Assembly (NCBI RefSeq): GCF_004001325.1 | Contig: NZ_AP018722.1 | Coordinates: 1,302,001 to 1,366,000, forward strand | DNA: 64,000 nt | Origin: Thiomicrorhabdus aquaedulcis | GTDB lineage: Bacteria; Pseudomonadota; Gammaproteobacteria; Thiomicrospirales; Thiomicrospiraceae | Direction: 5' to 3' | Shown: positions 1,140 to 63,231 of the stretch, piece by piece | Position numbering within the stretch: position 1 is the first letter of the stretch | How the letters are laid out: each line of letters begins with the position of its first letter | Notes under the pieces: model-generated | The model's input: the letters and a program-made list of their open reading frames with translations, nothing else | What the model was told of the DNA's origin: nothing | The model's database searches: none | Made by a program: the position numbers and the translations under genes

Positions 1140-1996
1140 GCGAGCAAAAAATGCGCTTTGAACAAGCCGACGGCATTTTAGATTTACGCGATGAGATTGC
1201 CTACCAAACTGCACATCTTCTGGGCGCGACTTGGTTAAGTTGGGACGATTTACCCGAAAGTTTAGCCATGTTGCCCGCGGCACCTGCACAATTTTTTTTA
1301 GTGGGTTCTAAAGCACAAATAGACGCCGCAAGTATTTTTTTAGACTTAAAAGAATATCAAGTTACCGGTTCATTAGTGGTTGAGTTAGACCAATCAATGG
1401 CATTATGGGACGCGCAATTACCAGGCCTGGTGGTTTCTGGAAACGATTCAAAAGTCTTGTGGTCACCCAACGAGCTTGTGGTTAGATGGTTGAGCAAATT
1501 AGAGTTTGATCCTAAAGCCTTAAAACCCAGACCACTGGCACTCGATTTGGGCTGCGGTGCTGGGCGTGACGCCGTTTTTTTAGCACAAAAGGGTTTTGTC
1601 GTCGACGCTATTGACAGTGAGGCACGCACCTTAAAACGAGCCAAGCAATTGGCTGCACGCAGTCGTACGCAAGTGCGCTTTAAATGTTGCGATTTAAAAA
1701 ATACCGAGTGCTTCCCCGACCAAATGTACGATGTGATTTTAATGGTGCGCTATTTAAATAGAGATTTATTTGACGCCATCAAACAACACGTTAAACCCGG
1801 CGGTTATGTGTTAATTCATACCTTTAGTGAAGGCGTTGAAGAGTTTAAATCTCCCAAAAATCCTAACTTTATTTTGCAACACGGTGAATTACGTCAAATT
1901 TTTGCTGGTTTTACCATCTTGGTAGATAATACAACTTATCTAAACGATGGCCGTCCCATGAATGCGTTTATTGCGCAAAAGCCACTTATTGAATAA
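1136..1996 (+). CDS. Class I SAM-dependent methyltransferase with rhodanese-like N-terminal region
   Basis: The protein has 286 residues. The SAM-binding motif I, LDLGCGAGRDAVFLA, lies near residue 136. It is followed by the acidic loop (VDAIDSEA) and a DVILMVRYLNRDLF motif, which together define a Rossmann-type class I methyltransferase. The first ~110 residues resemble the degenerate rhodanese-like domain found in some gammaproteobacterial proteins of this kind; I see no obvious active-site cysteine loop. The substrate is unknown. Its start overlaps the truB stop by 4 nt, so it is probably co-translated with truB. One CCAGGCCTGG palindrome lies at 1421-1430, coding Pro-Gly-Leu. A MITE starts 12 bp after the stop codon. 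Confidence 0.8.
   Translation: MSEQKMRFEQADGILDLRDEIAYQTAHLLGATWLSWDDLPESLAMLPAAPAQFFLVGSKAQIDAASIFLDLKEYQVTGSLVVELDQSMALWDAQLPGLVVSGNDSKVLWSPNELVVRWLSKLEFDPKALKPRPLALDLGCGAGRDAVFLAQKGFVVDAIDSEARTLKRAKQLAARSRTQVRFKCCDLKNTECFPDQMYDVILMVRYLNRDLFDAIKQHVKPGGYVLIHTFSEGVEEFKSPKNPNFILQHGELRQIFAGFTILVDNTTYLNDGRPMNAFIAQKPLIE
1421..1430. repeat. Iterated palindrome CCAGGCCTGG (in methyltransferase gene)
   Basis: Exact decamer, read in frame as Pro-Gly-Leu. One of 24 exact copies in the window. Confidence 0.9.
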
Positions 1997-2007
1997 AACA
2001 ACGTCCT

Positions 2008-2166
2008 GAGACCTTTGCACGAGTGGGGTGCGAGAAAAAAATGAGGAAAAATTTGCCTGATTGAGGCGGGAAACGCAGTGAATAGCTGGCTATTAACAAG
2101 TTTTCCAACGAAAAGCAGGAAAGTTTTAACCATTTTTGGCCGTACATCCACTCGTGCAAAGGTCTC
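2008..2166. mobile_element. MITE, complete copy 1 (159 bp)
   Basis: The element begins GAGACCTTTGCACGAGTG and ends with the exact reverse complement, an 18-bp perfect terminal inverted repeat. It is flanked by GTCCT at 2003-2007 and again at 2167-2171, a 5-bp target-site duplication. No transposase is encoded, so it is a non-autonomous element needing an enzyme from elsewhere in the genome. The end sequence looks IS5-superfamily-like, but that is from memory and unverified. It shares most of its length with the copy at 30359-30542 but lacks about 25 bp in the centre. Confidence 0.9.
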
Positions 2167-2221
2167 GTCCTGTAACATCGCCTTTAAAATTAACCATTCA
2201 ATCTATGTTAGGAGACCCAAA

Positions 2222-2713
2222 ATGTTATCAATGAATCCCAAAGAGTTATTTAACTTTTTTCAGCAACACGCTATTTGTGAGTCACTCACCTTTCCTGAGG
2301 TTGAACGTCTGATGGCGTATTTGCAAGAAAAATCCTACGCCGCCGGTGAAATCATTTCGGATGCGGGTGAAGTAAGTGAAGCGCTGGGCTACGTTATTAA
2401 TGGCAAAGTACAGTTCTCTAGTTTTGATGGTCAAGATGCCGCCATTGTGGGCAAGCAAGATGAAGGGAGCTTAGTGGGTGAAATGTCATTTTTTGACCGA
2501 AAGCCCCGTAATTTGCGCATGGAAGCGTCTAAAAAAGGGGTTTTAATGTTTATATTAACCCGTGCTATGTACGACCGTATTAAAGTAGAAGAGCCGTTTA
2601 TAGCCGTTAATATTTTAGAAAACGCCATTGTCAGCTTGGATAATTTAGTGCGTCATATGGGTGACGATATTTCAGCCTTAGGTCATTACATGCAAGGTTT
2701 TGGCAAACATTAA
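2222..2713 (+). CDS. Stand-alone cyclic-nucleotide-binding-domain protein
   Basis: The product has 163 residues. A cNMP-binding beta-barrel fold is suggested by YAAGEIISDAGEVSEALGYVINGKVQ near residues 38-65 and the phosphate-binding-cassette-like SLVGEMSFFDRKPRNLRMEA near residues 88-110. The final ~40 residues are helical and show no DNA-binding helix-turn-helix, so this is not a full Crp/Fnr regulator. The frame extends upstream into the MITE, but the start chosen is ATG 2222, preceded by TTAGGAGA. The element inserted about 55 bp upstream, so it may have displaced or supplied promoter sequence. The function is unknown beyond probable nucleotide or ligand sensing. Confidence 0.75.
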   Translation: MLSMNPKELFNFFQQHAICESLTFPEVERLMAYLQEKSYAAGEIISDAGEVSEALGYVINGKVQFSSFDGQDAAIVGKQDEGSLVGEMSFFDRKPRNLRMEASKKGVLMFILTRAMYDRIKVEEPFIAVNILENAIVSLDNLVRHMGDDISALGHYMQGFGKH

Positions 2714-2766
2714 GCGTACTTTGCTCTTACAAATGCACCCTAAACATATTTATGTGTTTAAAGCGC

Positions 2767-2794: not shown

Positions 2795-2865
2795 GCGCAC
2801 ATTAACTTCTATCATCGGTTGTGGAAGTTACTTTTATTAAAACCGATCCAATGGAGAAACCCGCT

Positions 2866-3132: not shown

Positions 3133-3144
3133 TTTGTTCGTTGT

Positions 3145-5602: not shown

Positions 5603-8517
5603 ATGTCAACAGCGCATTCCGCCTTTAAATACCTTGGCCAACACGCCATAGAGAGCTTAAATTTAACCGTAGAGCATTATCAGCATAACGTCACCGGTGC
5701 GACGCATTATCACTTGGCCGCTGAAGATGGCCAAAATGTGTTTTTAGTGGCCCTTAGAACCGTGCCCATGGACTCAACCGGTGTAGCGCACATTTTAGAA
5801 CACACTACTTTATGTGGCAGTGAAAAATATCCGGTGCGCGATCCGTTTTTTATGATGATTCGTCGCTCTCTTAACACCTTTATGAATGCCTTTACTTCAA
5901 GCGATTGGACCGCGTATCCGTTTGCAACCGAAAACCGTAAAGATTTTCAGAATTTATTGCAAGTCTATATGGATGCGGTGTTTTTTCCGTTACTTGACCC
6001 GTTAGATTTTGCCCAAGAAGGCCATCGGTTTGAGTTTGAAGAGATGGAAAATCCCAATTCACCTTTAACTTACAAAGGCGTGGTGTTTAATGAGATGAAA
6101 GGGGCGATGAGCTCACCCGTTTCTACGCTTTGGGAGGTGCTGAGTCGTGAACTTTACCCCACCAACACCTATCATTACAACAGCGGTGGCGAGCCAGAAG
6201 AGATTCCTAAGTTAACCCATCAGCAGTTGGTTGAGTTTCATCAAAATCATTACCATCCGTCAAACTCGGTGTTTATGACCTACGGTGATATTTCGGCACT
6301 TGAGCATCAAACGCAATTTGAAACCTTGGCGCTGCATCGCTTTACCGAATCGGTTGAGCAAGTGCACGTTGGCTTAGAACAGCGTTTTAGTACGCCCAAA
6401 GTAATCGAAGAAGCCTATGCGCTGGATGAAGAAGATATTGAGGGCAAAACTCACATTGTTTTGGGGTGGTTATTAGGTCAAAACCAAGATCCGTTAGAGG
6501 TGTTAAAAGGCCATTTATTGGGTGCGGTATTATTGGACAACAGTAATTCACCCTTACGTAAAGTACTAGAAGAGTGCGACTTAGCCGCCGCACCGTCGCC
6601 GTTGTGCGGATTTGAAGAGTCTAATAAAGAGATGGCGTTTGTCGTAGGGGTAGAAGGTTCAGAACCCGAACACGCCCAGGCAATTGAGCAGCTTATTTTA
6701 GACACGCTTGAACAAATCGCCCGCGATGGGGTTGAGCAACACCAGGTGGAAGCGATGTTGCACCAATTAGAGTTGTCACAACGTGAGGTAGGCGGCGACA
6801 GTTACCCTTATGGCCTGGGGTTAATTTTGCACGCTCTGCCTGGGGCGTTGCACGACGGCGATCCTATTGCTTTATTGGATACCGATAAAGCCTTGCTGGC
6901 GTTAGAGAGTCAAATTAAAGACCCTAATTTTATACCAGGCCTGGTCAAGTCTTGGTTGCTAGATAATCCACATCGCGTGCGCTTAACCCTAAAGCCCGAC
7001 ACCGAATTGTCGGCGCAAAAAGCCCAACACGAAAAGACACGTTAGCCGCTATACAAAACGCGTTAACCGTGTCGCAAAAGCAAGCGATTGTTGAGCAAGC
7101 GTTGGCGTTGCAAAGTCGCCAAGCTCAGGTAGATGATCCGGATATTTTGCCCGAAGTCACCAAAGATGATATTCCCGTTGATATTGCTAATTTAACATTA
7201 CCGGTTATGGCATTGGGGCAAATGCCAGTGAGTACCTATCAATGTGGCACCAATGGGTTAGTGTATGAGCAATTAATTTTAGAATTGCCAGCCTTAACGC
7301 CACGTGAACAGATGTTAATGCCGTTGTTTAACAGTTGCTTAACCGAAGTGGGCAGTGGCGGGCGCGACTATTTAGAGACGCAATCGTACCAGGCCTCGGT
7401 CACAGGCGGATTATCGGCGCGTTCGGCAATTCACTCTAAGTTAAATGCACCTGACGACTGTCACAGTCATTTTATTGTTTCGGGTAAAGCGTTAAATCGC
7501 AACCACCAACCGTTGGCCAGCCTAATAAAAGAGACCTTGTTTGATGCACGTTTTGACGAACACGCTCGCTTAAAAGATTTGGTGGGACAAATTCGCTCGT
7601 CTATTGACCACGGCATAACAGGCAACGGCCACGGTTTAGCCATGATGGCGGCGGTGCAAAACTTTACGCCCACCGCACAATGGCAGTTTCAGCGTTCGGG
7701 ATTTGCCGGTATTCAAGCCATAAAAGAACTGGATAAAACCCTTAAGAAAAAAGCCCATTTAGAACAGTTTGCCGAGGATTTAAGCACCATTGCGCAAAAG
7801 CTCTGTCAAGCACCCAAACAAGCCTTGTTAATCAGTGACGAAGCCGGTTTGCCACAGGCTATGGCTGGTCTTAAAAGTGAATGGTCTGCAATGAGTAATG
7901 TGGCGGCTACCAGCTTGTTTAGCTTACACGCTGATAAAACTCCTATTCACCAGGCCTGGGTAACCAGCACTCAAGTTAATTTTTGTGCATTAGCCTATCC
8001 TGCCGTTATGGCCGACCACGCCGATGCACCCAAGTTGGCGGTGTTAGGTGCGTGTTTGCGTAATGGTTTCTTGCATTCCGCCATTCGAGAAAAAGGCGGC
8101 GCGTACGGCGGCGGCGCCAGCTACAACAGTGAAGCAAGCGCCTTTGTATTTTATTCGTATCGTGACCCGCGCTTATTAGAAACCTACGATGACTTTAATC
8201 TTGCCCAGGCCTGGTTAATGAGCAATGAGGCCACACAAGCCAAAGTGGACGAGGCGATTTTAAACGTCATCAGCGCCATGGACAAACCTGGCTCACCGGC
8301 GGGCGAGGCTAAAAAAGCCTTTTATCAAACGTTATATGGCCGCACGCACGCGGTGCGTATGGCGTATCGTCAGGGCGTTATTTCAACTACGGTGGACGAG
8401 TTACGCACCGTGGCCGAGCGTTATTTAAGCGCTAATAATGCCTCGCGTGTGGTGCTTACCAATAAAGGCAATGCCCAAAAATTGGTTGATTTTGGTTTTG
8501 AAACCCAAATTTTGTAA
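5603..8517 (+). CDS. PreP-type M16C presequence/peptide metalloprotease, split by an apparent -1 nt frameshift
   Basis: Two adjacent frames, 5603-7045 and GTG 7069-8517, are the two halves of one insulinase-family M16C protease of about 971 residues. The inverted zinc motif is HILEHTTLCGS (near residue 55), followed by the PVRDPFFMM and SDWTAYPF regions. The second half contains the substrate-binding REKGGAYGGGA. The frames join if one A is added to the A4 run at 7032-7035, giving HEKDTLAAIQNALTVSQKQ, as expected for the family. The enzyme degrades unfolded peptides; homologues are organellar PreP or free bacterial zinc proteases. Three exact palindromes lie inside it. If the lesion is real, the gene is a pseudogene. 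Confidence 0.85.
6935..6944. repeat. Iterated palindrome CCAGGCCTGG (PreP gene, Pro-Gly-Leu frame)
   Basis: Exact decamer, coding I-P-G-L-V. Confidence 0.9.
7950..7959. repeat. Iterated palindrome CCAGGCCTGG (PreP gene, Gln-Ala-Trp frame)
   Basis: Exact decamer, coding H-Q-A-W-V. Confidence 0.9.
8205..8214. repeat. Iterated palindrome CCAGGCCTGG (PreP gene, Gln-Ala-Trp frame)
   Basis: Exact decamer, coding A-Q-A-W-L. It lies 255 bp after the previous copy in the same gene. Confidence 0.9.
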
Positions 8518-11562: not shown

Positions 11563-12908
11563 ATGGCAACAATACAATTTAGCATTCCCGACATCGGGGA
11601 TTTTGACACCGTCGAAGTCATAGAGGTGTTGGTTAAAAACGGTGACACGGTAAAAATGGACGACTCTTTAATGACCTTAGAGTCGGACAAAGCGACCATG
11701 GAAATTCCGTGTCCGGTTAACGGAGTTATCAGTAATTTAAAAATCGTTTTAGGTGATAAGGTAAAACAAGGCACCTATGTGTGCGACATTGAAGTAAACG
11801 ACGCGGCGCAAACAACCCAAACAACACCGCAGGTGTCTGCGCCCGTTGCAGCCGTAACAGCAACGGCTGCGCCAGTTGCCCCTGTTGCGGCTGTGCAAGC
11901 CGCCGCGCCTTCTGCTCCGGCGGTCTTACCAGGCCTGGTCAATGACTCAAAACCCATTAACAAACAATCCATGGGCGCGCAGTTTCATGCTTCGCCCTCG
12001 GTGCGAATTTTTGCCCGCACTTTAGGCACCGATTTAACCCACGTTAAGGGTTCTGGGCCAAAAGGCCGTATTCAAAAAATGACGTTGAAGCCTTTGTTAA
12101 ATCGGTTATGCAAGGTTCGGTAAATCCGACTGGTCAGGCCGGTCAAACTGGGCAACCCGCCAACAGTGGTATGGGCATTCCGCCTATGCCACAAATTGAT
12201 TTTAGTCAGTTTGGTGCAACCGAAACCGTTGAGCTTGGACGCATTAAGAAAATATCGGGCAAGCATTTGCACACCAGTTGGCTTAATGTGCCACACGTCA
12301 CTCAGTTTGACGAATGCGACATTACGCAAATGGATCAGTTTAGAGTGGACATGAAAGCCACCGCCGAAAAACAAGGCGTTAAACTTACCCCATTGGTGTT
12401 TGTCATGAAAGCCGTGGTTAAGGCTTTGCAAGATTTCCCGCATTTTAATGCCTCTTTGTCGGCTGACGGCCAAGCGTTAATTAAAAAATCCTATTACAAC
12501 ATTGGCATTGCGGTTGATACGCCCAACGGATTAATGGTTCCGGTAGTAAAAGACGTCGATAAAAAAGGCATTTATGAGCTATCACGCGATTTAATGGCCA
12601 TTTCGGCCAAAGCGCGTGACGGTAAACTTAGCCCAGCCGATATGTCGGGCGGCACGTTTACCATTTCAAGTTTGGGTGGGATTGGCGGCACGCAGTTTAC
12701 CCCCATTGTTAACGTTCCAGAAGTGGCGATTATGGGTTTGTCTAAAGCTAAAATGCAGCCTGTTTGGAACGGCACAACCTTTGAACCTAAACTGATTATG
12801 CCTTTTAGTGTGTCATACGATCACCGCGTGATTGATGGCGCAGAAGGGGTTCGCTTTACCACCAGCGTCGGCCAATATTTAACCGATATACGTCAATTGC
12901 TACTGTAA
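11563..12908 (+). CDS. aceF: Dihydrolipoamide acetyltransferase (E2), split by an apparent -1 nt frameshift
   Basis: The two frames 11563-12123 and 12108-12908 give one 448-residue E2 if one A is added to the A6 run at 12074-12079, restoring the end of the E3-binding domain. Domain order: one lipoyl domain (lipoyl Lys in ESDKATMEI, near residue 44), an Ala/Pro-rich linker, the peripheral-subunit-binding domain (SPSVRIFARTLGTDL..GSGPKGRIQK), and the catalytic domain with the active-site DHRVIDGAEG close to the C-terminus. It transfers acetyl groups to CoA. Having a single lipoyl domain is a common variant. As an essential core-metabolism gene, true loss is unlikely. Confidence 0.9.
11929..11938. 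repeat. Iterated palindrome CCAGGCCTGG (aceF)
   Basis: Exact decamer in the linker region, coding L-P-G-L-V. Confidence 0.9.
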
Positions 12909-12922: not shown

Positions 12923-14716
12923 ATGAGCAGTATAGTAGACATTCACGTCCCAGATATTGGCGACTTTGCCCAAGTAGAAGTCATTGAAGTGTTGGTTAAA
13001 GCCGGCGATGAAGTGATTCAAGACGACTCCATGCTTACGTTGGAATCGGACAAAGCCACCATGGAAATACCCGCACCGCACGCCGGAAAAGTGGTTGAAA
13101 TGTACGTGTCCATTGGCGACAAAGTCGCGCAAGGCACCTTAATTGGCAAAATGGAAATTGCTAATATTCAATCGGTCAGTGCTAACGTAGAAGTCAGTGT
13201 GGGGTCAACGCCCACTGCGGCCTCTGCAACACAAGGGACAGTAGAGCAAACAGCTGCGGCATCCACCGCATTATCGGCAGATGATTTACCAGATGCCGAT
13301 GTGCAATGCGAGTTATTGGTGTTAGGTTCAGGGCCCGGTGGTTACACGGCAGCATTTCGTGCAGCCGATTTAGGTAAAAACGTGGTGATGGTTGAACGTT
13401 TTGAACAGATTGGTGGCGTGTGTCTAAACGTGGGTTGCATTCCCTCTAAAGCGTTACTGCACATGTCGGTGATATTAAACGAAACCAAAGAGATGGGCGC
13501 GCACGGCATTACTTTTGCCGAGCCGCAGATTGATATTGATAAAATCAGAGCGTTTAAAGACGGCGTGATTAACAAGCTAACCAGCGGTTTATCAGGCCTG
13601 GCCAAAGCGCGTAAGGTTCAAGTGGTAACGGGTTACGGTAAGTTTACCTCGGCCAATACCGTAAGCGTTACCGCCGCCGACGGCTCGGTTAAAACCATTG
13701 CCTTTGAAAAAGCCATTATTGCGGCCGGTTCACGCGTGGTTAAACTGCCGTTTATTCCGCACGACGACCCACGCGTCATGGATTCGACCGGTGCCTTGGC
13801 GTTAGAAGAGATTCCTAAGCGTTTATTAGTGATTGGTGGGGGCATTATTGGGCTAGAAATGGCACAAGTGTACGATGCATTGGGTTCAAAAATCACCGTG
13901 GTCGAGCTAGGAGATACGATTATTCCGGGTGCTGACAAAGACATTAGCAAGCCGTTGCTTAAAAAGATTCAAAAGAAATACGAAAACATCTTTTTAAAAT
14001 CCAAAGTGACGAATGTAGAAGCAACCGATGCAGGCCTGGTGGTTACGTTTGAGGGCAAAAATTGCCCAGCAACCGACACCTTTGACCGTGTATTGGTGGC
14101 GGTAGGTCGCGCAGCCAATGGCAAATTGATTGACGCAGACAAAGCCGGCGTAGCCGTTAACGACTGGGGCTTTATTGAAGTAAATGAGCGCCAAGAAACC
14201 AATGTGGGTCATATTTATGCGATTGGTGATGTGGTTGGTCAGCCTATGTTGGCACACAAAGCGGTGCACGAAGGTAAAGTAGCCGCCGAGGTTATATGCG
14301 GTTTGCCCAGCGCCTTTACGCCGATGAGTATCCCGTCGGTGGCTTACACCGATCCAGAAGTCGCTTGGGCGGGTAAAACCGAAGAGCAACTTAAAGCCGA
14401 AGGCATTGAGTATGAAAAGGGCGCGTTTCCTTGGGCAGCGTCAGGGCGTAGCTTAAGTTTAGGCCGTGATGAAGGTTTAACCAAAGCGATGTTTTGTGCG
14501 CAAACCCATCGTTTGCTCGGGTGCGGGATTGTTGGCCCTAACGCCGGTGAACTGATTGCCGAGGCAATGTTGGCGATTGAAATGGGCGCAGACATGCAAG
14601 ATTTGGCACTGACCATTCACCCTCACCCAACGTTGTCCGAAACCCTAGGGTTTGCGGCGGAGATGGCCGAAGGCACAATTACCGATTTAATGCCGCCTAA
14701 GAAGAAAAAACATTAA
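12923..14716 (+). CDS. lpdA: Dihydrolipoamide dehydrogenase (E3) with N-terminal lipoyl domain
   Basis: The 597-residue protein is longer than a plain E3 (~475). Residues 1-80 form a complete lipoyl domain (ESDKATMEIPAP), followed by an Ala/Thr-rich linker and then the flavoprotein. In the flavoprotein the FAD motif is LLVLGSGPGGYTAAFRAADLG, the redox-active disulfide is GGVCLNVGCIPSKALLH, the NAD motif is LLVIGGGIIGLEMA, and the C-terminal His-Glu pair is in TIHPHPTLSETLG. E3 reoxidises dihydrolipoamide using NAD+. The lipoyl fusion is known in several proteobacteria. The gene starts 14 bp after aceF with GGGAGAG upstream. Two near-copies of the palindrome (13592, 14030) code S-G-L-A and A-G-L-V. 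Confidence 0.97.
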   Translation: MSSIVDIHVPDIGDFAQVEVIEVLVKAGDEVIQDDSMLTLESDKATMEIPAPHAGKVVEMYVSIGDKVAQGTLIGKMEIANIQSVSANVEVSVGSTPTAASATQGTVEQTAAASTALSADDLPDADVQCELLVLGSGPGGYTAAFRAADLGKNVVMVERFEQIGGVCLNVGCIPSKALLHMSVILNETKEMGAHGITFAEPQIDIDKIRAFKDGVINKLTSGLSGLAKARKVQVVTGYGKFTSANTVSVTAADGSVKTIAFEKAIIAAGSRVVKLPFIPHDDPRVMDSTGALALEEIPKRLLVIGGGIIGLEMAQVYDALGSKITVVELGDTIIPGADKDISKPLLKKIQKKYENIFLKSKVTNVEATDAGLVVTFEGKNCPATDTFDRVLVAVGRAANGKLIDADKAGVAVNDWGFIEVNERQETNVGHIYAIGDVVGQPMLAHKAVHEGKVAAEVICGLPSAFTPMSIPSVAYTDPEVAWAGKTEEQLKAEGIEYEKGAFPWAASGRSLSLGRDEGLTKAMFCAQTHRLLGCGIVGPNAGELIAEAMLAIEMGADMQDLALTIHPHPTLSETLGFAAEMAEGTITDLMPPKKKKH

Positions 14717-14734: not shown

Positions 14735-14768
14735 AAATTAAATCGACCAGGCCTGGTAGATTTAATTT
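14735..14768. repeat. Extended palindrome around CCAGGCCTGG, between convergent genes
   Basis: The decamer at 14747-14756 is the centre of a 34-bp palindrome with one mismatched pair (G745/A758). Arms read AAATTAAATC outward. AAATC-type direct repeats sit just upstream. Confidence 0.85.
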
Positions 14769-16406: not shown

Positions 16407-16424
16407 TTAACCAGGCCTGGTTAA
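16407..16424. repeat. Extended palindrome TTAACCAGGCCTGGTTAA upstream of thiC
   Basis: A perfect 18-bp palindrome around the decamer 16411-16420. It lies in the divergent promoter region, 10 bp upstream of the candidate thiC -35. Confidence 0.9.
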
Positions 16425-16462: not shown

Positions 16463-16478
16463 CAGCATTCGTTTTTTG

Positions 16479-16552
16479 TCGGAGTGCCTTTAGGCTGAGA
16501 TCGCGCAAGCGGGATCCGTAGAACCTGATCTGGTTAGTACCAGCGAAGGGAA
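16479..16552 (+). ncRNA. TPP riboswitch (thi box)
   Basis: The conserved aptamer elements are present in order: GGAGTGCC..GGCTGAGA, then GAACCTGATCTGGTTAGTACCAG and GCGAAGGGA. These form the pyrimidine- and pyrophosphate-binding arms of the thiamine pyrophosphate aptamer. It precedes thiC, its commonest target, and is expected to switch the operon off when TPP is abundant. Confidence 0.95.
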
Positions 16553-16591
16553 CAATTGAATTTAAGTTGGTTTTTTTAGCCAACTTCTCCC

Positions 16592-16733: not shown

Positions 16734-18684
<1,951 letters not shown>

Positions 18685-18685
<1 letters not shown>

Positions 18686-19836
18686 TGATGGCCAATCTTA
18701 ACCAAAAGAGTAAGCCAAACATTGCCATTTTAGGCGCAGGCCTGGTCGGACGAATGTTGGCGGTAAGTTTAGCCAAAGACGTTGACCAGGCCTGCGATAT
18801 TACGTTATACGACCAAGACGATGGTCACGCCACGCAAAGTGCGGGTTGGTTGGCGGCGGCGATGTTATCACCCGCAGCTGAATCAGCCGATGCGTCGATT
18901 GACATTATGCACATGGGCGAACGCGCTTTGCGCTTGTGGCCAGAGTTTTTGGCGCAACTGAGCACGCCGGTGTTTTTTCAGCAACAAGGCAGTTTGGTGT
19001 TGGCGTTTGAGCAAGACATGGGCGATTTACAACAGTTTAAAACGCGCTTAAAAAGCACCGATTACACGTTGGTAAACGCCCAAGATATTTTAGAGCTAGA
19101 GCCCGGCATTAACCGCCGTTTTAGCCACGGAGTGTTTTTACCCAACGAAGGCCAGTTGGACAATCGCGGGCTGCTGCTGGCGCTTAAAACCGAGTTGGTG
19201 TCGCTGGGGGTAACTTGGCACACCCAACAAACCATCGCATTAACCGCAACGGGTTATAGTGCAAATCACACCCCGCTGCCACAGTTCGACTGGGTGTTTG
19301 ATTGCCGGGGTTTGGGGGCAAAGCCATTAAACGCCGTGCCAGCGTCAATGAGCGGCATTGCCAAAGCTCATTGTGAATTACGGGGGGTTCGCGGCGAGGT
19401 GATTCGTTTGCACGCGCCGCAGGTGCATTTAACCAGGCCTGTTCGTTTAATGCATCCGCGTTATCCGTTGTATATCGCTCCCAAGCCCAATGGGGTGTTT
19501 GTGGTGGGTGCCACGCAGTTAGAATCACAAGACCTACGCTTGCCCACAGTGCGTTCGGCGTTGGAGTTGTTGTCGGCTTGTTTTAGCGTGCACAGCGGAT
19601 TTGCCGAGGCCGAAATTTTAAGCATGGACGCCGGTCTTAGACCGACTTATGTGAATAACGAACCGCGTATTGTGGTGCAAAATCGCACCGTGAGTGTGAA
19701 CGGATTGTACCGTCACGGCTATTTATTAGCGCCACTGATGGTGCAAGCTTGCAAGCAGATTGTGCAAGGCATTCAAGATGATTCTTTACGGGATTTGTTG
19801 CAGTTTACGGAGTTTAGCTATGCACGTTTTGGTTAA
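18685..19836 (+). CDS. thiO: Glycine oxidase ThiO
   Basis: The 383-residue flavoprotein has an N-terminal dinucleotide-binding motif (IAILGAGLVGRMLAVSLA) and the DAO-family C-terminal substrate region (DAGLRPTYVNNEPRIV..GHGYLLAP-like). ThiO oxidises glycine to the imine used for the thiazole half of thiamine. Its ATG overlaps the thiC stop (TAATG); a second ATG follows immediately at 18688. Its 3' end overlaps thiS by 17 bp. Three near-copies of the palindrome occur here (18736, 18786, 19433), in three different reading frames. ThiH is not needed when ThiO is present, which fits the operon. Confidence 0.9.
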
Positions 19837-22336: not shown

Positions 22337-22984
22337 TCAGCTTTTGGGCGTGATTTGCACCAACACGCCAAACTGCGGGTGGTCAATGTAATGCAGTTCG
22401 CCAGGTTTTATTTTTCGGGCATCTTTTAAATTAAAACGCCAATGAGTTGGTAAGAGGTTGGCCGAAATTTTTTGATGGCGTGCAAAATCATCGCGTATGC
22501 GAGTGGGAATAATTTTATCTAACGTTAAATCAACGGCTACATGGGCAAAGCGAGTTTTGTACAGTTTAACCGTGCCGTTTAATTGCGAGCCAGTTTGCGC
22601 TGGTGCGTTAATGATTACACTGGGGCTTTTAGACGAGTTGCCTGCAGTTTGTGACCAGGCCTGGTGAAACAGAATTTTATACCCTTGTGAACCGCTCATT
22701 TTACTGACCACTTGGGTAAGGTTTTTGGGTGCTTGACCAATGCCTAATGGCGCACTGCCGATTTGCGAGAGCGACACACTGTTTTGAGTAGAAGGCTGTT
22801 CAACGTCGGCTGGCCAAACTTCTTCAGTCCAGGCTTTTTGAGTGTAGTTTTCAAACACAATCACTTCAATGTTGTAGTTTTCGGCCGCGTGCGCTGGGTT
22901 AAAGACCGTTAAAGTGAGTAGACTTATTAAGCCTACAAACACCCATCTTGGCATGGCAAACGTGGGAGTGGTAATGTTGTTCAT
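22337..22984 (-). CDS. csiV: CsiV-family periplasmic protein
   Basis: The 215-residue precursor has a signal peptide (hydrophobic 14-28, cleavage likely after NPAHA) and then YNIEVIVFENYTQKAWTEEVWP. This opening, with the C-terminal ELHYIDHPQFGVLVQI, is typical of the CsiV family (peptidoglycan-binding, first studied in Vibrio cholerae). It lies 32 bp downstream of mfd on the same strand, the conserved gammaproteobacterial neighbourhood. It carries one iterated palindrome at 22655. Confidence 0.8.
   Translation of the reverse strand: MNNITTPTFAMPRWVFVGLISLLTLTVFNPAHAAENYNIEVIVFENYTQKAWTEEVWPADVEQPSTQNSVSLSQIGSAPLGIGQAPKNLTQVVSKMSGSQGYKILFHQAWSQTAGNSSKSPSVIINAPAQTGSQLNGTVKLYKTRFAHVAVDLTLDKIIPTRIRDDFARHQKISANLLPTHWRFNLKDARKIKPGELHYIDHPQFGVLVQITPKS
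22655..22664. repeat. Iterated palindrome CCAGGCCTGG (csiV)
   Basis: Exact decamer. Read on the minus strand it codes H-Q-A-W-S. Confidence 0.9.
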
Positions 22985-32583: not shown

Positions 32584-32595
32584 ACCAGGCCTGGT
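32584..32595. repeat. Iterated palindrome ACCAGGCCTGGT (intergenic, first of a pair)
   Basis: 12-bp perfect palindrome, 18 bp after the lolD stop. Confidence 0.9.
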
Positions 32596-32604: not shown

Positions 32605-32620
32605 TAACCAGGCCTGGTTA
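32605..32620. repeat. Iterated palindrome TAACCAGGCCTGGTTA (intergenic, second of a pair)
   Basis: 16-bp perfect palindrome, 9 bp after the previous one. This is the only close pair in the window. Confidence 0.9.
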
Positions 32621-35654: not shown

Positions 35655-35689
35655 GAGCCTTCTTTATAATTTACTAAGGTGTTGACGTG

Positions 35690-37999: not shown

Positions 38000-38977
38000 A
38001 TGTTTGCGTATATTGTTAGACGAATACTCATGGCCATTCCCATTTTAATTGGGGTCAATTTTATTACTTTTTCGCTGTTTTTTATGGTCAATACCCCCGA
38101 TGATATGGCGCGCTCGCAATTGGGTGCAAAACAAACTACACCCGAAATGATACAGGCCTGGAAAGTGGATCACGGTTATGACAAACCGCTGTTTGTTAAC
38201 ACCGATGCAGAGGGTTTACACATTTTGAGTGAAACGCTGTTTGTACAACAGTCGCTTAAGTTATTTGTGTTTGATTTTGGACAATCAGACGCTGGACGGC
38301 AGATTTCGGCGGATATTTACGAACGCATGTGGCCGAGCCTATCGATTGCACTGCCCACTTTTTTTATTGGCTTAATCACAACCATTGCCCTGGCTTTACT
38401 GATTGTGTTGTTTAGGGGCACGGTACTGGATACTGCGGCCATGGTGGTGGCCGTGGCAATTATGTCTATTTCGGGTCTGTTTTACATTATTGCTGGCCAA
38501 GTATTATTCAGTAAAATATGGCATTGGGTACCCATTTCAGGGTATGAAAACGGCTGGGATGGCGTTAAATTTTTAATTTTACCGGTATTAATTGGCGTGT
38601 TTGCCGGGCTGGGTGCCGGCGTGCGCTGGTATCGCAGTATCTTTTTGGAAGAAATTAATAAAGAGTACATTCGTACTGCGCGCGCTAAAGGATTGTCTGA
38701 AATAAAAGTGCTGTTTTCACACGTTTTACAAAATGGTTTATTGCCTATTTTAACCGGTGTGGTGGTGGTCATTCCAAGCCTGTTTATGGGCAGTTTAATC
38801 ATGGAATCGTTTTTTGGTATACCAGGCCTGGGCAGTTACACCATTGATGCCATTAACGCCCAAGACTTTTCCATTGTAAAAGCCATGGTGTTTTTGGGTT
38901 CGGTGCTTTACATTGTGGGGCTTATTTTGACCGATATTTCATACACTTTTTTTGATCCCCGCGTCAAATTGACCTAA
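38000..38977 (+). CDS. Peptide-type ABC transporter permease, OppB/DppB family
   Basis: The 325-residue protein has six membrane segments, the N-terminal MFAYIVRRILMAIPILIGV and a long periplasmic first loop. The cytoplasmic coupling motif is EEINKEYIRTARAKGLSEIKVLFSHVLQNGLLPI (EAA loop). It begins 3 bp after the binding-protein stop. One exact palindrome at 38822 (I-P-G-L-G) and a near-copy at 38152 (I-Q-A-W-K). The partner permease follows. Confidence 0.9.
   Translation: MFAYIVRRILMAIPILIGVNFITFSLFFMVNTPDDMARSQLGAKQTTPEMIQAWKVDHGYDKPLFVNTDAEGLHILSETLFVQQSLKLFVFDFGQSDAGRQISADIYERMWPSLSIALPTFFIGLITTIALALLIVLFRGTVLDTAAMVVAVAIMSISGLFYIIAGQVLFSKIWHWVPISGYENGWDGVKFLILPVLIGVFAGLGAGVRWYRSIFLEEINKEYIRTARAKGLSEIKVLFSHVLQNGLLPILTGVVVVIPSLFMGSLIMESFFGIPGLGSYTIDAINAQDFSIVKAMVFLGSVLYIVGLILTDISYTFFDPRVKLT
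38822..38831. repeat. Iterated palindrome CCAGGCCTGG (OppB-type gene)
   Basis: Exact decamer, coding I-P-G-L-G. Confidence 0.9.
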
Positions 38978-42170: not shown

Positions 42171-42194
42171 ACGTTGACCAGGCCTGGTCAACGT
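42171..42194. repeat. Extended 24-bp perfect palindrome around CCAGGCCTGG, between convergent operons
   Basis: The decamer (42178-42187) is extended perfectly by ACGTTGA on the left and its complement on the right. A short T-rich stretch follows, so it may terminate transcription. Confidence 0.9.
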
Positions 42195-44502: not shown

Positions 44503-44520
44503 TTGACCAGGCCTGGTCAA
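44503..44520. repeat. Extended palindrome TTGACCAGGCCTGGTCAA between divergent ubiG and gyrA
   Basis: Perfect 18-bp palindrome with the decamer at 44507-44516. Confidence 0.9.
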
Positions 44521-47370: not shown

Positions 47371-47402
47371 ACAATAAATGACCAGGCCTGGTCATTTATT
47401 GT
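47371..47402 (+). terminator. 32-bp perfect palindrome built on CCAGGCCTGG, probable gyrA terminator
   Basis: The decamer at 47382-47391 is flanked by perfectly complementary 11-bp arms (ACAATAAATGA on the left) and followed by T-rich DNA (GTTTTACCTTTT). It can form a stable hairpin and is the longest perfect extension seen. Confidence 0.75.
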
Positions 47403-47451: not shown

Positions 47452-48546
47452 ATGACAAGAGCGTATAATTTTAGTGCCGGTCCGGCCATGTTGCCCGAAC
47501 CCGTAATGCAGCAAGCGGCCGCCGAGTTTTTAAACTGGCAAAACACCGGTATGTCGGTAATGGAAATGAGTCATCGCTCAAAAGAATACATGGCGTTGGC
47601 GCATAAAATGGAAGCCGATTTACGTCAAGTAATGGCCATTCCGAGTAACTACAAAGTATTGTTTTTACACGGTGGCGCGTCCATGCAGTTTTCGGCCATT
47701 CCGTTAAATTTAACCCAACCTGGCGACACAGTTGATTATTTAAACACCGGCGTGTGGTCAACCAAAGCCATTGTTGAGGCGCGACGTTTTGTGCACGTAA
47801 ACGTGGTTACCGGCGGTGAGCTTGATAATCCTGTGACCATCGCCGACCCGGTAGAATGGCACTTTAGTGAAAATGCTAAATACATTCATATTTGCGTGAA
47901 CGAAACCATTACTGGTTTAGAGATGCAAACCAGCCATTTAGAGGCTGTTTTTGCCCAAGGCAAACCGGTGATTGCCGACATGTCGTCTAATATTATGTGC
48001 CGTGAAATCGACGTAAGTCGTTACGCCATGATTTACGCGGGCGCGCAAAAGAACATTGGTCCGGCCGGAATGGCCATTGCGATTGTTCGCGAAGACCTTT
48101 TGGGTTATGCCCGTGACGACACGCCTACATTATTAAACTGGCAGGTTTACGCAAATAATGAGTCGATGTTTAACACGCCGTCTACTTACTCTTGGTACTT
48201 AGCAGGCCTGGTGTTTGAATGGTTGCAATCGATTGGTGGCGTGGCGCAAATGGCTAAAATTAATGAACGTAAAGCCACTTTGTTGTACAACTATTTAGAC
48301 CAATCCAGCTTTTACCACAACCCCATTCACCCCGCACAACGCTCGTGGATGAATGTGACTTTTACGCTTAAAAACCCAGCGTTAGAGACGGACTTTTTAA
48401 GCCAAGCCAAAGCCGCAGGCCTTCTCAGTTTAAAAGGTCATAAAGCGTTTGGCGGAATGCGTGCCAGCATTTATAACGCCATGCCCGAAGCCGGTGTGGT
48501 GGCGTTAATTGCATTTTTAGAACAATTTGCGGCACAAAACGCTTAA
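47452..48546 (+). CDS. serC: Phosphoserine aminotransferase
   Basis: The 364-residue PLP enzyme starts YNFSAGPAMLPEPVMQQA, with the PLP lysine in YAGAQKNIGPAG (near residue 199). It converts 3-phosphohydroxypyruvate to phosphoserine and also acts in pyridoxal synthesis. It opens the serC-pheA-hisC-tyrA-aroA-cmk-rpsA cluster. A near-copy of the palindrome at 48202 codes A-G-L-V. Confidence 0.97.
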   Translation: MTRAYNFSAGPAMLPEPVMQQAAAEFLNWQNTGMSVMEMSHRSKEYMALAHKMEADLRQVMAIPSNYKVLFLHGGASMQFSAIPLNLTQPGDTVDYLNTGVWSTKAIVEARRFVHVNVVTGGELDNPVTIADPVEWHFSENAKYIHICVNETITGLEMQTSHLEAVFAQGKPVIADMSSNIMCREIDVSRYAMIYAGAQKNIGPAGMAIAIVREDLLGYARDDTPTLLNWQVYANNESMFNTPSTYSWYLAGLVFEWLQSIGGVAQMAKINERKATLLYNYLDQSSFYHNPIHPAQRSWMNVTFTLKNPALETDFLSQAKAAGLLSLKGHKAFGGMRASIYNAMPEAGVVALIAFLEQFAAQNA

Positions 48547-49772: not shown

Positions 49773-50948
49773 ATGTCGCAGCCAGCACCATTAGTACACT
49801 CAACAGCTTCAACACCCACCGCGTTAACGTCCTCTTTTAAAGAGGTGGTTTTGCCGCAAATTTTGGGAATTCATCCCTATGTTCCGGGCAAACCCATTAG
49901 CGAATTACAACGCGAGCTGGGGTTAACACGCATCACCAAATTAGCCTCTAACGAAAACCCATTGGGCGCAAGCCCCAAGGTATTAGAGGCTATTCACCAA
50001 GCCTTGGTGGACATTGCGCGTTATCCCGATGGCAGTGCTTATGAGTTAAAAACCGAATTGGCTCATTTTCTAAAGTGTCAAACCAATCAATTGGTGATTG
50101 GCAATGGTTCAAACGAACTGCTTGAACTGGTGGCACGTGCCTTTGCGGGGCCGGGTGATGAAATTGTTTACTCGCAATACGCGTTTGCCGTATACCCAAT
50201 TTCGGCGCAAGTAGTTGGGGCTACGGGGGTCGAGGTAACGGCCAAAAATTGGGGGCACGATTTAGACGCTATGGCCAACGCCATTACCGCTAAAACCAAA
50301 GTGGTGTATTTGGCCAATCCCAATAACCCAACCGGTACATTGTTTAATCGCCAGGCCTGGGAGGCTTTTATAAGCCGTGTTCCCGCGCACGTGATTGTGG
50401 TATTGGACGAGGCTTACGTTGAATACGCCCAAGCGGCGGTTAACGCACAAGACTATTTAAACGGTATGGCTTATATAAACGCCCATCCTAATGTATTGGT
50501 GTCGCGCACTTTTTCTAAAGCGTACGGCTTGGCCTCATTGCGCGTGGGTTACATGGCGGGCACGCCAGAGATAATTGGCTATTTAAACCAGTTACGTGCA
50601 CCGTTTAACATTAATCAGTTGGCGCAAGTCGCCGCCGTAGCGGCGCTAAAAGACGCTGAATTTGTGCAAAAAGGGGTGGCGCTTAACCAGCAGGGCATGC
50701 AGCAAATCATCACCGCTCTAAACGAGTTAAACATTGAGTCGATTGCCTCGGTAGCCAATTTTTTATGCATAAACCTAGGTGAGAAGGCGGCAAAAATCAA
50801 TCAAATGCTCTTACAAAAAGGGGTGATTGTTCGCCCGGTGGCCAATTACGGTTTAACGCAATTTTTACGCGTCTCGATTGGTACACACGCAGAAAATGCC
50901 CATTTTATTGAGGCGTTGCGCGCCAGCTTGCAGGAGCAACAGGCGTGA
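49773..50948 (+). CDS. hisC: Histidinol-phosphate / aromatic aminotransferase, HisC family
   Basis: The 391-residue class I/II aminotransferase has LASNENPLGASPKVLEAI, LDEAYVEYA and the PLP lysine in SRTFSKAYGLASLRVGY. In this aromatic cluster the enzyme may act on phenylpyruvate and hydroxyphenylpyruvate as well as, or instead of, histidinol phosphate. An exact palindrome at 50351 codes R-Q-A-W-E. The stop overlaps tyrA by 4 bp (GTGA). Confidence 0.9.
   Translation: MSQPAPLVHSTASTPTALTSSFKEVVLPQILGIHPYVPGKPISELQRELGLTRITKLASNENPLGASPKVLEAIHQALVDIARYPDGSAYELKTELAHFLKCQTNQLVIGNGSNELLELVARAFAGPGDEIVYSQYAFAVYPISAQVVGATGVEVTAKNWGHDLDAMANAITAKTKVVYLANPNNPTGTLFNRQAWEAFISRVPAHVIVVLDEAYVEYAQAAVNAQDYLNGMAYINAHPNVLVSRTFSKAYGLASLRVGYMAGTPEIIGYLNQLRAPFNINQLAQVAAVAALKDAEFVQKGVALNQQGMQQIITALNELNIESIASVANFLCINLGEKAAKINQMLLQKGVIVRPVANYGLTQFLRVSIGTHAENAHFIEALRASLQEQQA
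50351..50360. repeat. Iterated palindrome CCAGGCCTGG (hisC)
   Basis: Exact decamer, coding R-Q-A-W-E. Confidence 0.9.
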
Positions 50949-53215: not shown

Positions 53216-53916
53216 TGTCTTTGTTTAATGCACATTCCAATGAGTCTAACCCCATCATCCCCGTCGTTACCATTGATGGCCCCAGTGGGGTCGGCAAGGG
53301 AACCTTGGCGCAGTATTTAACCTGCAAAACCGGTTTTCATTTATTAGACAGTGGAGCTATTTATCGCGCTTTAGCGTATGGCGCAGTGCAAAATAGTTTA
53401 GACGGCACAAATCTACCAGGCCTGGTCAATTTGGCGTTAAATTTACCGGTTGAATTTATGTCCACCAGTATTTTATACAACGGCGTCGATGTCACTGCAT
53501 CGGTTCGCACAGAAGAAGTGGCTGCGGTAGCCTCAACGCTCGCCGCAATCCCCGAAGTTCGCAGTGCGTTATTAGCGCGTCAAAAAGCCTTTGCACAAGC
53601 CCCAGGGCTAATTGCAGATGGTCGTGACATGGGTACAGTCGTGTTTCCAGACGCACCCGTAAAACTGTATTTAACCGCTTCGGCCGAAATTAGAGCACAA
53701 AGACGCGTTAATCAGTTGAAAAACCAAGGACTTAATGCTAATATTCGCAAAATAACTCAAGACATCCAAGAACGCGATGAACGCGATTCAAATCGTGTTG
53801 CAGCGCCTCTTAAACCAGCCCAAGACGCAGTGGTTCTAGATACTACGCACTTAAGCATCGAAGACGTTTGCCAGCAGGCTATGTCCTTGTTGTGGCAAAA
53901 AGGTTTAATAAAATAA
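53215..53916 (+). CDS. cmk: Cytidylate kinase
   Basis: The 233-residue P-loop kinase has PVVTIDGPSGVGKGTLAQYL, the CMP-binding LLDSGAIYRALA and the DGRDMGTVVFPDA motif. It phosphorylates CMP and dCMP. The gene order aroA-cmk-rpsA is the ancestral one. An exact palindrome at 53416 codes L-P-G-L-V. Confidence 0.96.
   Translation: MSLFNAHSNESNPIIPVVTIDGPSGVGKGTLAQYLTCKTGFHLLDSGAIYRALAYGAVQNSLDGTNLPGLVNLALNLPVEFMSTSILYNGVDVTASVRTEEVAAVASTLAAIPEVRSALLARQKAFAQAPGLIADGRDMGTVVFPDAPVKLYLTASAEIRAQRRVNQLKNQGLNANIRKITQDIQERDERDSNRVAAPLKPAQDAVVLDTTHLSIEDVCQQAMSLLWQKGLIK
53416..53425. repeat. Iterated palindrome CCAGGCCTGG (cmk)
   Basis: Exact decamer, coding L-P-G-L-V. It is the last copy for 8 kb. Confidence 0.9.
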
Positions 53917-61425: not shown

Positions 61426-61431
61426 ACAGCA

Positions 61432-61459
61432 CATGATTGACCAGGCCTGGTCAATCATG
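61432..61459 (+). repeat. 28-bp perfect palindrome built on CCAGGCCTGG, after dnaB
   Basis: The decamer at 61441-61450 has perfectly complementary 9-bp arms (CATGATTGA on the left). It lies 6 bp after the dnaB stop. No T-run follows, so terminator function is less clear than after gyrA. Confidence 0.9.
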
Positions 61460-61497
61460 AATGTATTTAACGCAGTCTTAATTTATATGGAATTTTA

Positions 61498-62574
61498 ATG
61501 ACATACCGTCCTGCCAAGGCGCTAATTGATTGTTCAGCCCTTAAACATAATTTAGCGCTGATTAAATCACTGGCACCTCATAGCAAAGTATTGGCTGTTA
61601 TTAAAGCCAATGGCTATGGCCATGGCATGCATAGAGTTGCACAGCAATTGGTTAAAGCCGATGGTTTTGGGGTAGCCTCGATGGATGAGGCCATTTATTT
61701 GCGCCAACAAGGGTTTTTACACCGTATTTTACTGTTAGAAGGCGTTTTTTCTGAAGCTGAACTGCACTTAGCCGCTCAGCATCGTATTGATGTGGTTGTG
61801 CACGCTTCTCACCAATTACATTGGTTGCTGGACAATACTTTCGAAAACACCATTAATGTTTGGATTAAAGTTGACACTGGCATGCACCGTTTAGGGTTTT
61901 TGCCCGATGAAGTCCCCAATGTACTGTCTAAACTGCAACCCTTGGTCAAGCGTTACCCTATTCATGTAATGACGCATTTGGCCAGTGCTGACGAGGACAG
62001 TTTGCAGGCTCAACAGTTTACACAGCAGCAATTAAGCTGTTTTGCCAGCTTGTTTAATCACTTGAACTACCCTAAAAGTGTCGTTAATTCTGCGGGCGTT
62101 CAAAAGCTTGTCCAAGCTCAGTTTGACTGGATTCGTCCTGGAATATTATTGTACGGTGCGGGCAATTTACAACAGCTGGATGCGCGCGCGGTCATGACTT
62201 TATCCTCTGAAATTATAGCGTTAAAGTGGATCAGCGCAGGTGAGTCGGTAGGGTATGGTAATGCCTGGACGGCTCAAAACACTACTTTAGTGGGTGTGGT
62301 TGCAATGGGTTATGGTGACGGTTATCCACGTCATGCACCAAGTGGTACACCTTTATGGATTAAAGGACAAAGGGTAGCATTAATTGGTCGTGTTTCTATG
62401 GACATGATTATGATTGACCTAACAACAATGGCCGAGCACGTTGCTTTGGGTGATGTGGTTGAGTGCTGGGGTAAGAATGTGTCGGTAGACGAAGTAGCGC
62501 GCTATGCCGGAACCATAGGCTATGAATTGCTGTGCGGTGTTACTCAGCGTGTGCCTATGATTGAGATACATTAA
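61498..62574 (+). CDS. alr: Alanine racemase
   Basis: The 358-residue PLP enzyme has the cofactor lysine in VLAVIKANGYGHGMHR (near residue 36) and the second-domain catalytic tyrosine in VGYGNAW. SMDMIMIDLT and GYELLCGVTQRVP close the fold. It supplies D-alanine for peptidoglycan. Confidence 0.96.
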   Translation: MTYRPAKALIDCSALKHNLALIKSLAPHSKVLAVIKANGYGHGMHRVAQQLVKADGFGVASMDEAIYLRQQGFLHRILLLEGVFSEAELHLAAQHRIDVVVHASHQLHWLLDNTFENTINVWIKVDTGMHRLGFLPDEVPNVLSKLQPLVKRYPIHVMTHLASADEDSLQAQQFTQQQLSCFASLFNHLNYPKSVVNSAGVQKLVQAQFDWIRPGILLYGAGNLQQLDARAVMTLSSEIIALKWISAGESVGYGNAWTAQNTTLVGVVAMGYGDGYPRHAPSGTPLWIKGQRVALIGRVSMDMIMIDLTTMAEHVALGDVVECWGKNVSVDEVARYAGTIGYELLCGVTQRVPMIEIH

Positions 62575-62577
62575 CCC

Positions 62578-63231
62578 ATGATTAATAACGAAAAAAAACA
62601 AATTCTGATTGAGTCTGTTAAAACAGAGTTTGACGGTTTCTTTAAACTTTGTCGCCTGCGTTTTAAGCATTCGCTCTACAAAGGCAATTGGTCTGCGCCC
62701 ATAGAGCGCGAAGTTTTTTGTCGCGGAGAAGCCGTTGTGGTGTTGCTGTATGATTCACGCCGTCAGCAGGTGGTTTTGGTAGAGCAATGTCGACCTGGCG
62801 CTGTTTTGCATCGTTGTGCATTGCCTGAATCCAAAACTAACATAGGCACAGCTATTAATCACGTAATTGAATTAGACCAGGCCTGGTTACTTGAGCCTGT
62901 GGCCGGCATGATTGATGCTGGAGAAACCCCCGAACAAGCGGGCATACGCGAAGTGCAGGAAGAAGCGGGGATTACGGTAGACACGTTAGAATATATCTGC
63001 CAACTCTATCCCAGCCCAGGTGGGTGTGATGAGATGCTTTACCTTTATGCGGCTGACATAGACTCGAGCCAGTTGCCCAAGTTTGCTGGCTTAGCAAATC
63101 ATGTAGAGGACATTAAAGTGGTTACCCTGTCTTATGGTGAGGCCAAACAGGCTTTACGTGAGGCACGTTTTAACGTAGCAACTACCTTTATTGCCCTGCA
63201 ATGGCTTTTCTTTCAAAGAGAATCACAATGA
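62578..63231 (+). CDS. NUDIX hydrolase, ADP-ribose pyrophosphatase type
   Basis: The 217-residue protein contains the Nudix box GMIDAGETPEQAGIREVQEEAG (about residues 116-137), preceded by VVLVEQCRPGAV and followed by YPSPGGCDEMLYLYAAD. This layout is typical of NudF-like ADP-ribose pyrophosphatases. It starts 3 bp after alr, so it is co-transcribed with it. An exact palindrome at 62877 codes D-Q-A-W-L. The substrate is assigned by similarity only. Confidence 0.87.
   Translation: MINNEKKQILIESVKTEFDGFFKLCRLRFKHSLYKGNWSAPIEREVFCRGEAVVVLLYDSRRQQVVLVEQCRPGAVLHRCALPESKTNIGTAINHVIELDQAWLLEPVAGMIDAGETPEQAGIREVQEEAGITVDTLEYICQLYPSPGGCDEMLYLYAADIDSSQLPKFAGLANHVEDIKVVTLSYGEAKQALREARFNVATTFIALQWLFFQRESQ
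62877..62886. repeat. Iterated palindrome CCAGGCCTGG (NUDIX gene)
   Basis: Exact decamer, coding D-Q-A-W-L. Confidence 0.9.

Follow-up and report, generated by a model that had tools for sequence, protein, structure and literature searches.

A dispersed palindromic word with clade-specific dialects in Thiomicrorhabdus and its relatives, a probable DNA uptake sequence

Results and discussion

A stretch of 64,000 nucleotides from Thiomicrorhabdus aquaedulcis (contig NZ_AP018722.1, positions 1,302,001 to 1,366,000; hereinafter the window) is pervaded by a short palindromic word, which we describe at three lengths: the 8-bp core CAGGCCTG, the 10-mer CCAGGCCTGG, and the 12-mer ACCAGGCCTGGT. Comparison with known systems indicates that it is probably a DNA uptake sequence of the Thiomicrorhabdus-Hydrogenovibrio-Thiomicrospira family, of the kind typified by the DNA uptake sequence (DUS) of Neisseriaceae and the uptake signal sequence (USS) of Pasteurellaceae. 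We show its abundance, its dialects and their phylogeny, its origin by substitution, the conservation of its sites, their location and flanks, and the presence of ComEC and pilin-type genes in its hosts. The strict core, A-tracts in most dialects, clade-specific dialects, terminator habit, inverted pairs, substitution origin, and maintenance of the word together match the uptake-sequence profile given in the available portions of the published accounts (PMC1626085, PMC3630211, PMC7811141, PMC1852404), which are likewise the basis of the further comparisons below.

Abundance of the word

Each of the 24 copies of CCAGGCCTGG that an earlier sequence-only reading had listed in the window is present at its given start, against a mean of 0.05 and a maximum of 1 in 100 dinucleotide shuffles and an expectation of 0.055 under a second-order Markov model; under the same model, 0.006 copies of ACCAGGCCTGGT are expected and 17 are seen. 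The seven additional cores of that reading also exist, but in each case CAGGCCTG begins one position further right than stated there (13593, 14031, 18737, 18787, 19434, 38153, and 48203), bringing the window to 31 cores (24 + 7). In the whole genome (hereinafter G000; 2,537,035 bases [2.54 Mb] in two contigs), CCAGGCCTGG occurs 856 times and CAGGCCTG 1,106 times, or about once per 2.3 kb, whereas the reversed control words occur 0 times and once, respectively. The word thus belongs to the genome and not to the window alone, and since these counts lie far above expectation, its dismissal as a near-Markov frequency fails.

An over-represented 8-bp core at this density also recalls a recombination hotspot of the Chi type, with RecBCD or AddAB as its reader. 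The octamers known as Chi, which RecBCD recognises, are oriented and non-palindromic, whereas the present word is palindromic, enriched in intergenic DNA (above all where genes converge), and rare in many relatives; we accordingly regard a Chi-like role as very unlikely.

In agreement with the earlier suspicion that the word is undescribed, we found no description of it in the open-access literature among the matches listed: the string CCAGGCCTGG occurs in 49 papers, the 20 listed of which deal with unrelated subjects, the string ACCAGGCCTGGT had no occurrence there, and searches pairing the names of these genera with palindromes or uptake sequences likewise listed no description. The 18-mer TTGACCAGGCCTGGTCAA gave 0 matches to a virus collection, which says nothing about host phages.

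Core, near-misses, and flanks

For a detailed analysis we used a 464-kb sample of G000 (the window and twenty further stretches), which holds 198 cores against 5.5 expected. Counted together, the 12 forms that differ from the core at a single base number 115 in this sample against 135 expected, that is, chance level. Likewise, across 15 word-bearing genomes we counted 654 perfect cores, with 600 single-mismatch forms seen against 616.5 expected; in wordless genomes the latter figures are 214 and 292. Relative to this wordless baseline the word-bearing set keeps some excess of near-misses, chiefly TAGGCCTG, and decayed copies therefore exist but are few. The excess of perfect copies over single mismatches seen here is a strong-consensus trait reported for both USS and DUS (PMC1626085). 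Depletion of CGGGCCTG, which we considered as a sign of drive, was dropped as a candidate, its frequency being 0.38 of expectation in word-bearing and 0.37 in wordless genomes.

Outside the core the sequence is looser. In the G000 sample ACCAGGCCTGGT accounts for 115 sites, and one-sided variants include AGC (19), GCC (15), CCC (11), AAC (6), and TCC (3). This seemingly independent variation of the outer halves suggests that a protein reads double-stranded DNA, rather than that a perfect hairpin is needed. The symmetric flanks of G000 favor A at -7 and -6 (44 and 40%), T at -4 (67%), A at -2 (82%), and C at -1 (86%); in the relative G023, the A adjoining the core moves from -2 to -1. Besides G000 and the clades sister to it, an A-tract about 6–8 bases outside the core is present in the AAC clade, in G008, G023, and G033, and on the left side of the G020 word. 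The AT-rich flank of the USS lies on one side, whereas the A-tract-bearing palindromic dialects here have an A-rich flank on both; a per-site test for left-right asymmetry of A content put none of seven sets of palindromic-dialect sites clearly above shuffles. In the palindromic dialects the shared sequence stops within about 12 bp of the center.

Distribution and dialects

Among named genomes scanned by gyrA, those nearest to G000 were of Thiomicrorhabdus, Hydrogenovibrio, and Thiomicrospira, in keeping with the sulfur oxidizer presumed by the sequence-only reading; genes for RuBisCO and the carboxysome protein CsoS2 are also present in one sampled stretch. In a set of 37 genomes of this family (G000–G036), whole-genome core counts range from 236 to 1,173 in 18 genomes, and the remaining 19 have 3–74; among these 19, G020 and G023, and probably G004, carry a changed word. 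In 21 genomes of other families of the same class we counted 0–222 cores, with 0–91 copies of the reversed-word controls. Many wordless genomes share a genus with word-bearing ones.

Samples of about 60–100 kb from each relative (20 kb from G002 and G022) resolved the word into dialects. The ACCAGGCCTGGT or ACC form is that of G000, G009, G010, G015, G016, G021, G027, G030, G033, and G036; G008 has AGCAGGCCTGCT; AACAGGCCTGTT is weakly favored in G005 and G018; and the outer bases are mixed in G025 and G035. The dialect of G023 is ACCGGCCGGT, extended to TTACCGGCCGGTAA, with 45 copies of CCGGCCGG and zero of CAGGCCTG in 100 kb. G020 has an oriented, asymmetric word, AAAAACTCAACAGGCCGGGTA; its sister G004 carries copies that resemble it. 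In the samples of G003, G011, G013, G014, G019, G024, G026, and G031 we counted 0–2 cores, and no dialect word occurred more than once.

We placed these states on a gyrA tree of 40 rows with 35 of the 37 family genomes, omitting G006, whose gyrA is split in two, and G034 (partial); four rows (L019, L020, L022, and L024) take their word state from a single locus of about 18–23 kb, and one (L021) has none assigned. The ACC form occupies genera g1, g3, and g6 and, in a mixed state, g5; AGC, AAC, mixed, and asymmetric forms fall within one clade; G023 clusters with wordless genomes, and other wordless species are placed elsewhere. The dialects thus broadly follow the gyrA phylogeny, with the number of switches and losses not firm because several forks are weakly supported.

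The asymmetric word of G020 shows a further peculiarity. Its 38 AACAGGCCGG sites in 122.5 kb include five neighbor pairs less than 60 bp apart, all tail-to-tail, where 0.7 pairs are expected by chance. These inverted pairs mostly have outward T-tracts and form terminator-like hairpins, which is the terminator habit of DUS and USS (PMC1852404, PMC3630211).

Conservation at orthologous sites

Using protein alignments of at least 50% identity, with one claim per target region, we compared the codons of coding copies with their orthologs. In relatives with the same word, 30 of 70 aligned comparisons retain the exact core, as do 29 of the 39 in which the residues are identical; of 8-base control windows taken from these genes, again at identical residues, 16.6% are identical. 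The corresponding binomial P of 3e-15 is only indicative, as shared ancestry links the comparisons. Where the outer bases of a relative differ, the core is retained in 11 of 43 comparisons (7 of 19 at identical residues), and in wordless relatives in 0 of 65 (0 of 19); of 18 comparisons with the remaining relatives (G020, G004, G023, and PiscCG07), one, with PiscCG07, retains it. Conservation of positions between relatives, which the sequence-only reading had proposed as a check, therefore holds beyond background at orthologous codons of same-word relatives. A gap falls at the site in 1 same-word and 5 wordless comparisons. From the ungapped codon alignment and the conservation of the core, the copies look to be substitution-born and maintained.

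The same alignments bear on descent from a transposing or inserted short element, of the repetitive extragenic palindromic (REP) or miniature inverted-repeat transposable element (MITE) type. Hundreds of near-identical copies would fit such debris, but the shared motif spans just 16–24 bp or so, ending in the palindromic dialects within about 12 bp of the center, and the orthologous positions are codon-aligned and free of gaps in 70 of the 71 same-word comparisons; moreover, the MITE-like family that also occurs in the window bears little resemblance to the word. The origin from mobile elements, earlier raised as a possible undoing of the claim, fails on these points, and we find it scarcely credible.

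Genomic location

With genes taken as mechanical open reading frames (ORFs) of at least 90 codons, 130 of the 198 sites in the G000 sample lie in genes and 68 between them. The non-coding share of the sample is only 12.9%, and the intergenic enrichment amounts to 2.7-fold. Spacers between convergent genes are the densest (16 sites in 8,563 bp, 1.87 per kb) and those between divergent genes the sparsest (9 sites in 13,139 bp, 0.68 per kb). Coding sites are distributed over the three frames as 58, 55, and 17, the frame with an AGG codon being least used. Palindrome arms of at least 8 occur at 34% of intergenic and 8% of coding sites. This bias, together with the intergenic and convergent enrichment, is what one would expect of an intrinsic terminator signal that spread; however, the majority of sites are intragenic and the coding sites are conserved, which disfavors termination as the main role and leaves it highly improbable.

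On the second contig (C2), a single 20-kb stretch bearing the conjugation genes TraF, TraG, and TraH holds 2 cores, against a mean of 8.5 for chromosomal stretches of that length. As a separate observation, the stretch L099 (G000:C1:2250001-2270000), which codes for RuBisCO, the carboxysome protein CsoS2, and a Mutator-family transposase, has one core in 20 kb; this carboxysome/RuBisCO region is possibly a younger acquisition.

The sparsity on C2 would suit a chromosome-organizing or nucleoid-associated homodimer acting on about 1,000 sites as a signal for replication, segregation, or recombination, and the two-fold symmetry, strict core, and looser flanks likewise resemble the site of a dimeric DNA-binding protein. 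Nevertheless, the site of an essential chromosome protein would not usually be almost missing from several relatives or change dialect so quickly, and random spacing, gene-end enrichment, and an asymmetric dialect with inverted pairs also speak against such a homodimer, which we judge improbable.

Methyltransferases and the comparison with HIP1

Profile searches for gene families (PF00145, PF01555, PF16732, GspH, and PF03772) covered 25 genomes, 17 word-bearing and 8 wordless. C5 methyltransferases (PF00145) occur in 4 of the 17 and 4 of the 8, and N6/N4 methyltransferases (PF01555) in 4 of the 17 (a fifth being below the cut-off) and 3 of the 8, with no link to the word in either case. Ten of the 17 word-bearing genomes match neither family; PF02086 and type I/IIG enzymes were not searched. 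The two families, among those searched, thus track neither the word nor any dialect.

These results are pertinent to a HIP1-like iterated palindrome that a DNA methyltransferase, together with a repair system, would generate or use, as proposed by Elhai for cyanobacteria. HIP1 is likewise an 8-bp GC-rich palindrome with alternative words in relatives and tolerance of one-off mismatches at its ends (Elhai 2015, PMC4390886), and to this extent the likeness drawn by the sequence-only reading survives. It breaks down in the methyltransferase pattern of the two families searched and in the asymmetric version of the word in G020 with its inverted pairs, and possibly in the enrichment at gene ends; further, the CCGGCCGG core of G023 contains no adenine. 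Hence, we consider a HIP1-type origin unlikely.

Comparison with known uptake systems

The other likeness of the earlier reading, that to uptake sequences, is well supported: the word has dialects, occurs at terminators, forms inverted pairs in one of the relatives, arose by substitution, and is conserved at its sites. Like the word described here, the neisserial DUS numbers hundreds to thousands of copies, some inside genes and some in terminators, has clade dialects that agree with the phylogeny, and forms inverted pairs (Frye et al. 2013, PMC3630211). Unlike it, the present word is unrelated in sequence, is mostly a single self-complementary word, and belongs to a different family and class, whose 25 searched genomes have no ComP_DUS-family match over the cut-off. 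The USS of Pasteurellaceae shares the strict core, AT-rich flanks, and substitution origin (PMC1626085, PMC7811141), and its subclade types, including a shortened word in H. ducreyi (PMC1852404), parallel the dialects; its word, though, is unrelated and non-palindromic, and spacing is random here. A title cited in PMC1852404 refers to palindromic Haemophilus uptake sequences in terminators.

As for the machinery, ComEC (PF03772) was detected in 24 of the 25 genomes (it was undetected in the wordless G031) and N_methyl pilin N-terminal signals in 22 of 22. The ComEC frame of G020 is short, at 594 aa against 834–957 in the other 23 genomes. ComP is the receptor of the neisserial DUS system, while Pasteurellaceae are predicted to use another minor pilin, the candidate being ComN (PMC12616744).

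Several observations weigh against an uptake role. ComEC has a long open frame (849–948 aa) in 7 of the 8 wordless genomes, and competence genes therefore do not predict the word. ComP_DUS (PF16732) matched 0 of 25 genomes over the cut-off and GspH only 3 of 25, all wordless, with no receptor identified by these searches. G035 and G036 have no A-tract (G036 has T there). Spacing is random (coefficient of variation 1.07 over the first 100 sites; variance/mean 0.92 for site counts per 20 kb), whereas DUS and USS are described as somewhat regularly spaced, even spacing being a descriptive rather than a defining trait of theirs. In the available portions of the published accounts, DUS and USS form palindromes only as pairs and not as a single self-complementary word. 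Finally, conservation, dialects, and a strong consensus alone cannot separate uptake from other sequence-specific selection.

The uptake role, receptor, and dynamics that we infer would be as follows. Double-stranded DNA bearing the word would be bound at the cell surface by a receptor, most likely a (minor) type IV pilin belonging to the competence machinery, that reads the strict core (CAGGCCTG in G000) and, more loosely, the outer bases, aided in most dialects by the flanking A-tracts. DNA of kin would be preferentially taken up and then recombined, and repetition of such biased uptake and recombination would cause new copies to rise and old ones to be kept. Copies would be best tolerated between genes, where they may also serve in terminator hairpins. 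Drift of the receptor specificity would draw the word of the whole genome along, giving rise to dialects, and upon loss of the uptake bias the word would decay.

With greater reserve, we lean towards a third, independently evolved uptake-sequence system, belonging to sulfur-oxidizing Gammaproteobacteria, whose receptor would read a two-fold-symmetric double-stranded site. Within one genus its word would have undergone repeated dialect switches and loss in several lineages, each half-site becoming apparently one base shorter (ACCAGGCCTGGT to ACCGGCCGGT), and in one clade the symmetry would have been broken to yield an oriented word, so that the origin of oriented uptake words might be observable here. 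Strong sequence-specific DNA uptake has been described for two families, Pasteurellaceae and Neisseriaceae, whose members live mainly on respiratory and other mucosa (PMC7811141), and explanations of its evolution lean partly on the mucosal habitat. If true, an independent case in sulfur-oxidizing bacteria would detach the trait from life on a host and imply a barrier to gene exchange between sulfur-oxidizer species. It would also provide a within-family series (six word states and wordless species) for tracing the co-evolution of receptor and word, in which the question of drive versus selection could be tested.

Copies within the window

The 31 copies are listed below; conserved sites named individually come from an unfiltered version of the ortholog comparison that includes paralog double counts, whereas the totals given above come from the filtered version.

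1421..1430, CCAGGCCTGG, ORF 1136-1996; exact core kept in G015, G025, G027
6935..6944, CCAGGCCTGG, ORF 5603-7045 (M16-type peptidase)
7950..7959, CCAGGCCTGG, ORF 7069-8517; exact core kept in G015, G025
8205..8214, CCAGGCCTGG, ORF 7069-8517
11929..11938, CCAGGCCTGG, ORF 11563-12123
13593..13600, CAGGCCTG core, lipoamide dehydrogenase ORF 12923-14716
14031..14038, CAGGCCTG core, lipoamide dehydrogenase ORF 12923-14716
14747..14756, CCAGGCCTGG, convergent spacer, at a terminator position
16411..16420, CCAGGCCTGG, divergent spacer, upstream of a thiamine pyrophosphate (TPP) riboswitch
17035..17044, CCAGGCCTGG, ORF 16859-18685
18737..18744, CAGGCCTG core, ORF 18685-19836
18787..18794, CAGGCCTG core, ORF 18685-19836
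19434..19441, CAGGCCTG core, ORF 18685-19836
22655..22664, CCAGGCCTGG, ORF 22337-22984 (-)
24716..24725, CCAGGCCTGG, mfd ORF 23017-26478 (-)
26160..26169, CCAGGCCTGG, mfd ORF 23017-26478 (-)
26346..26355, CCAGGCCTGG, mfd; exact core at orthologous codons of G027
32585..32594, CCAGGCCTGG, intergenic, 23 bp from the 32608 copy
32608..32617, CCAGGCCTGG, intergenic
35295..35304, CCAGGCCTGG, ORF 34761-35540 (-) (enoyl reductase-like)
36596..36605, CCAGGCCTGG, ORF 35687-37996; exact core kept in G009, G016
38153..38160, CAGGCCTG core, ORF 38000-38977
38822..38831, CCAGGCCTGG, ORF 38000-38977; exact core kept in G009, G016
42178..42187, CCAGGCCTGG, between convergent genes, inside AACGTTGACCAGGCCTGGTCAACGTT (long terminator-like palindrome)
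44507..44516, CCAGGCCTGG, divergent spacer upstream of gyrA
47382..47391, CCAGGCCTGG, closely downstream of gyrA, extended palindrome
48203..48210, CAGGCCTG core, ORF 47452-48546; kept exactly in G016, G021, G027, G030, not in G009, G015
50351..50360, CCAGGCCTGG, ORF 49773-50948
53416..53425, CCAGGCCTGG, ORF 53215-53916; exact core kept in G016, G021, G027
61441..61450, CCAGGCCTGG, downstream of dnaB, inside CATGATTGACCAGGCCTGGTCAATCATG
62877..62886, CCAGGCCTGG, ORF 62578-63231; exact core kept in G021, G030

The TPP riboswitch (Rfam RF00059, 77 bits) lies at 16470-16568, 49 bp downstream of the copy at 16411.

Other repeats

The window also contains a second dispersed repeat, which is MITE-like or REPIN-like (that is, resembling paired REP sequences), at 2011-2163, 30362-30539, and 56769. 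Its inverted ends, GAGACCTTTGCACGAG and CTCGTGCAAAGGTCTC, are mostly about 140–175 bp apart, and 21 further end copies were recovered in 400 kb of G000; the repeat is common in G016, with few copies in G030 and G010. In G013 (L201-L205, 97 kb) we noticed the repeated words GGGCGTTAAACA (9 copies) and ACCACTCAACGG (8 copies), which we take to be reminiscent of integron attC arrays. Runs of at least eight C, possibly phase-variable tracts, are enriched in several wordless relatives (L012, L025, L026, and L220).

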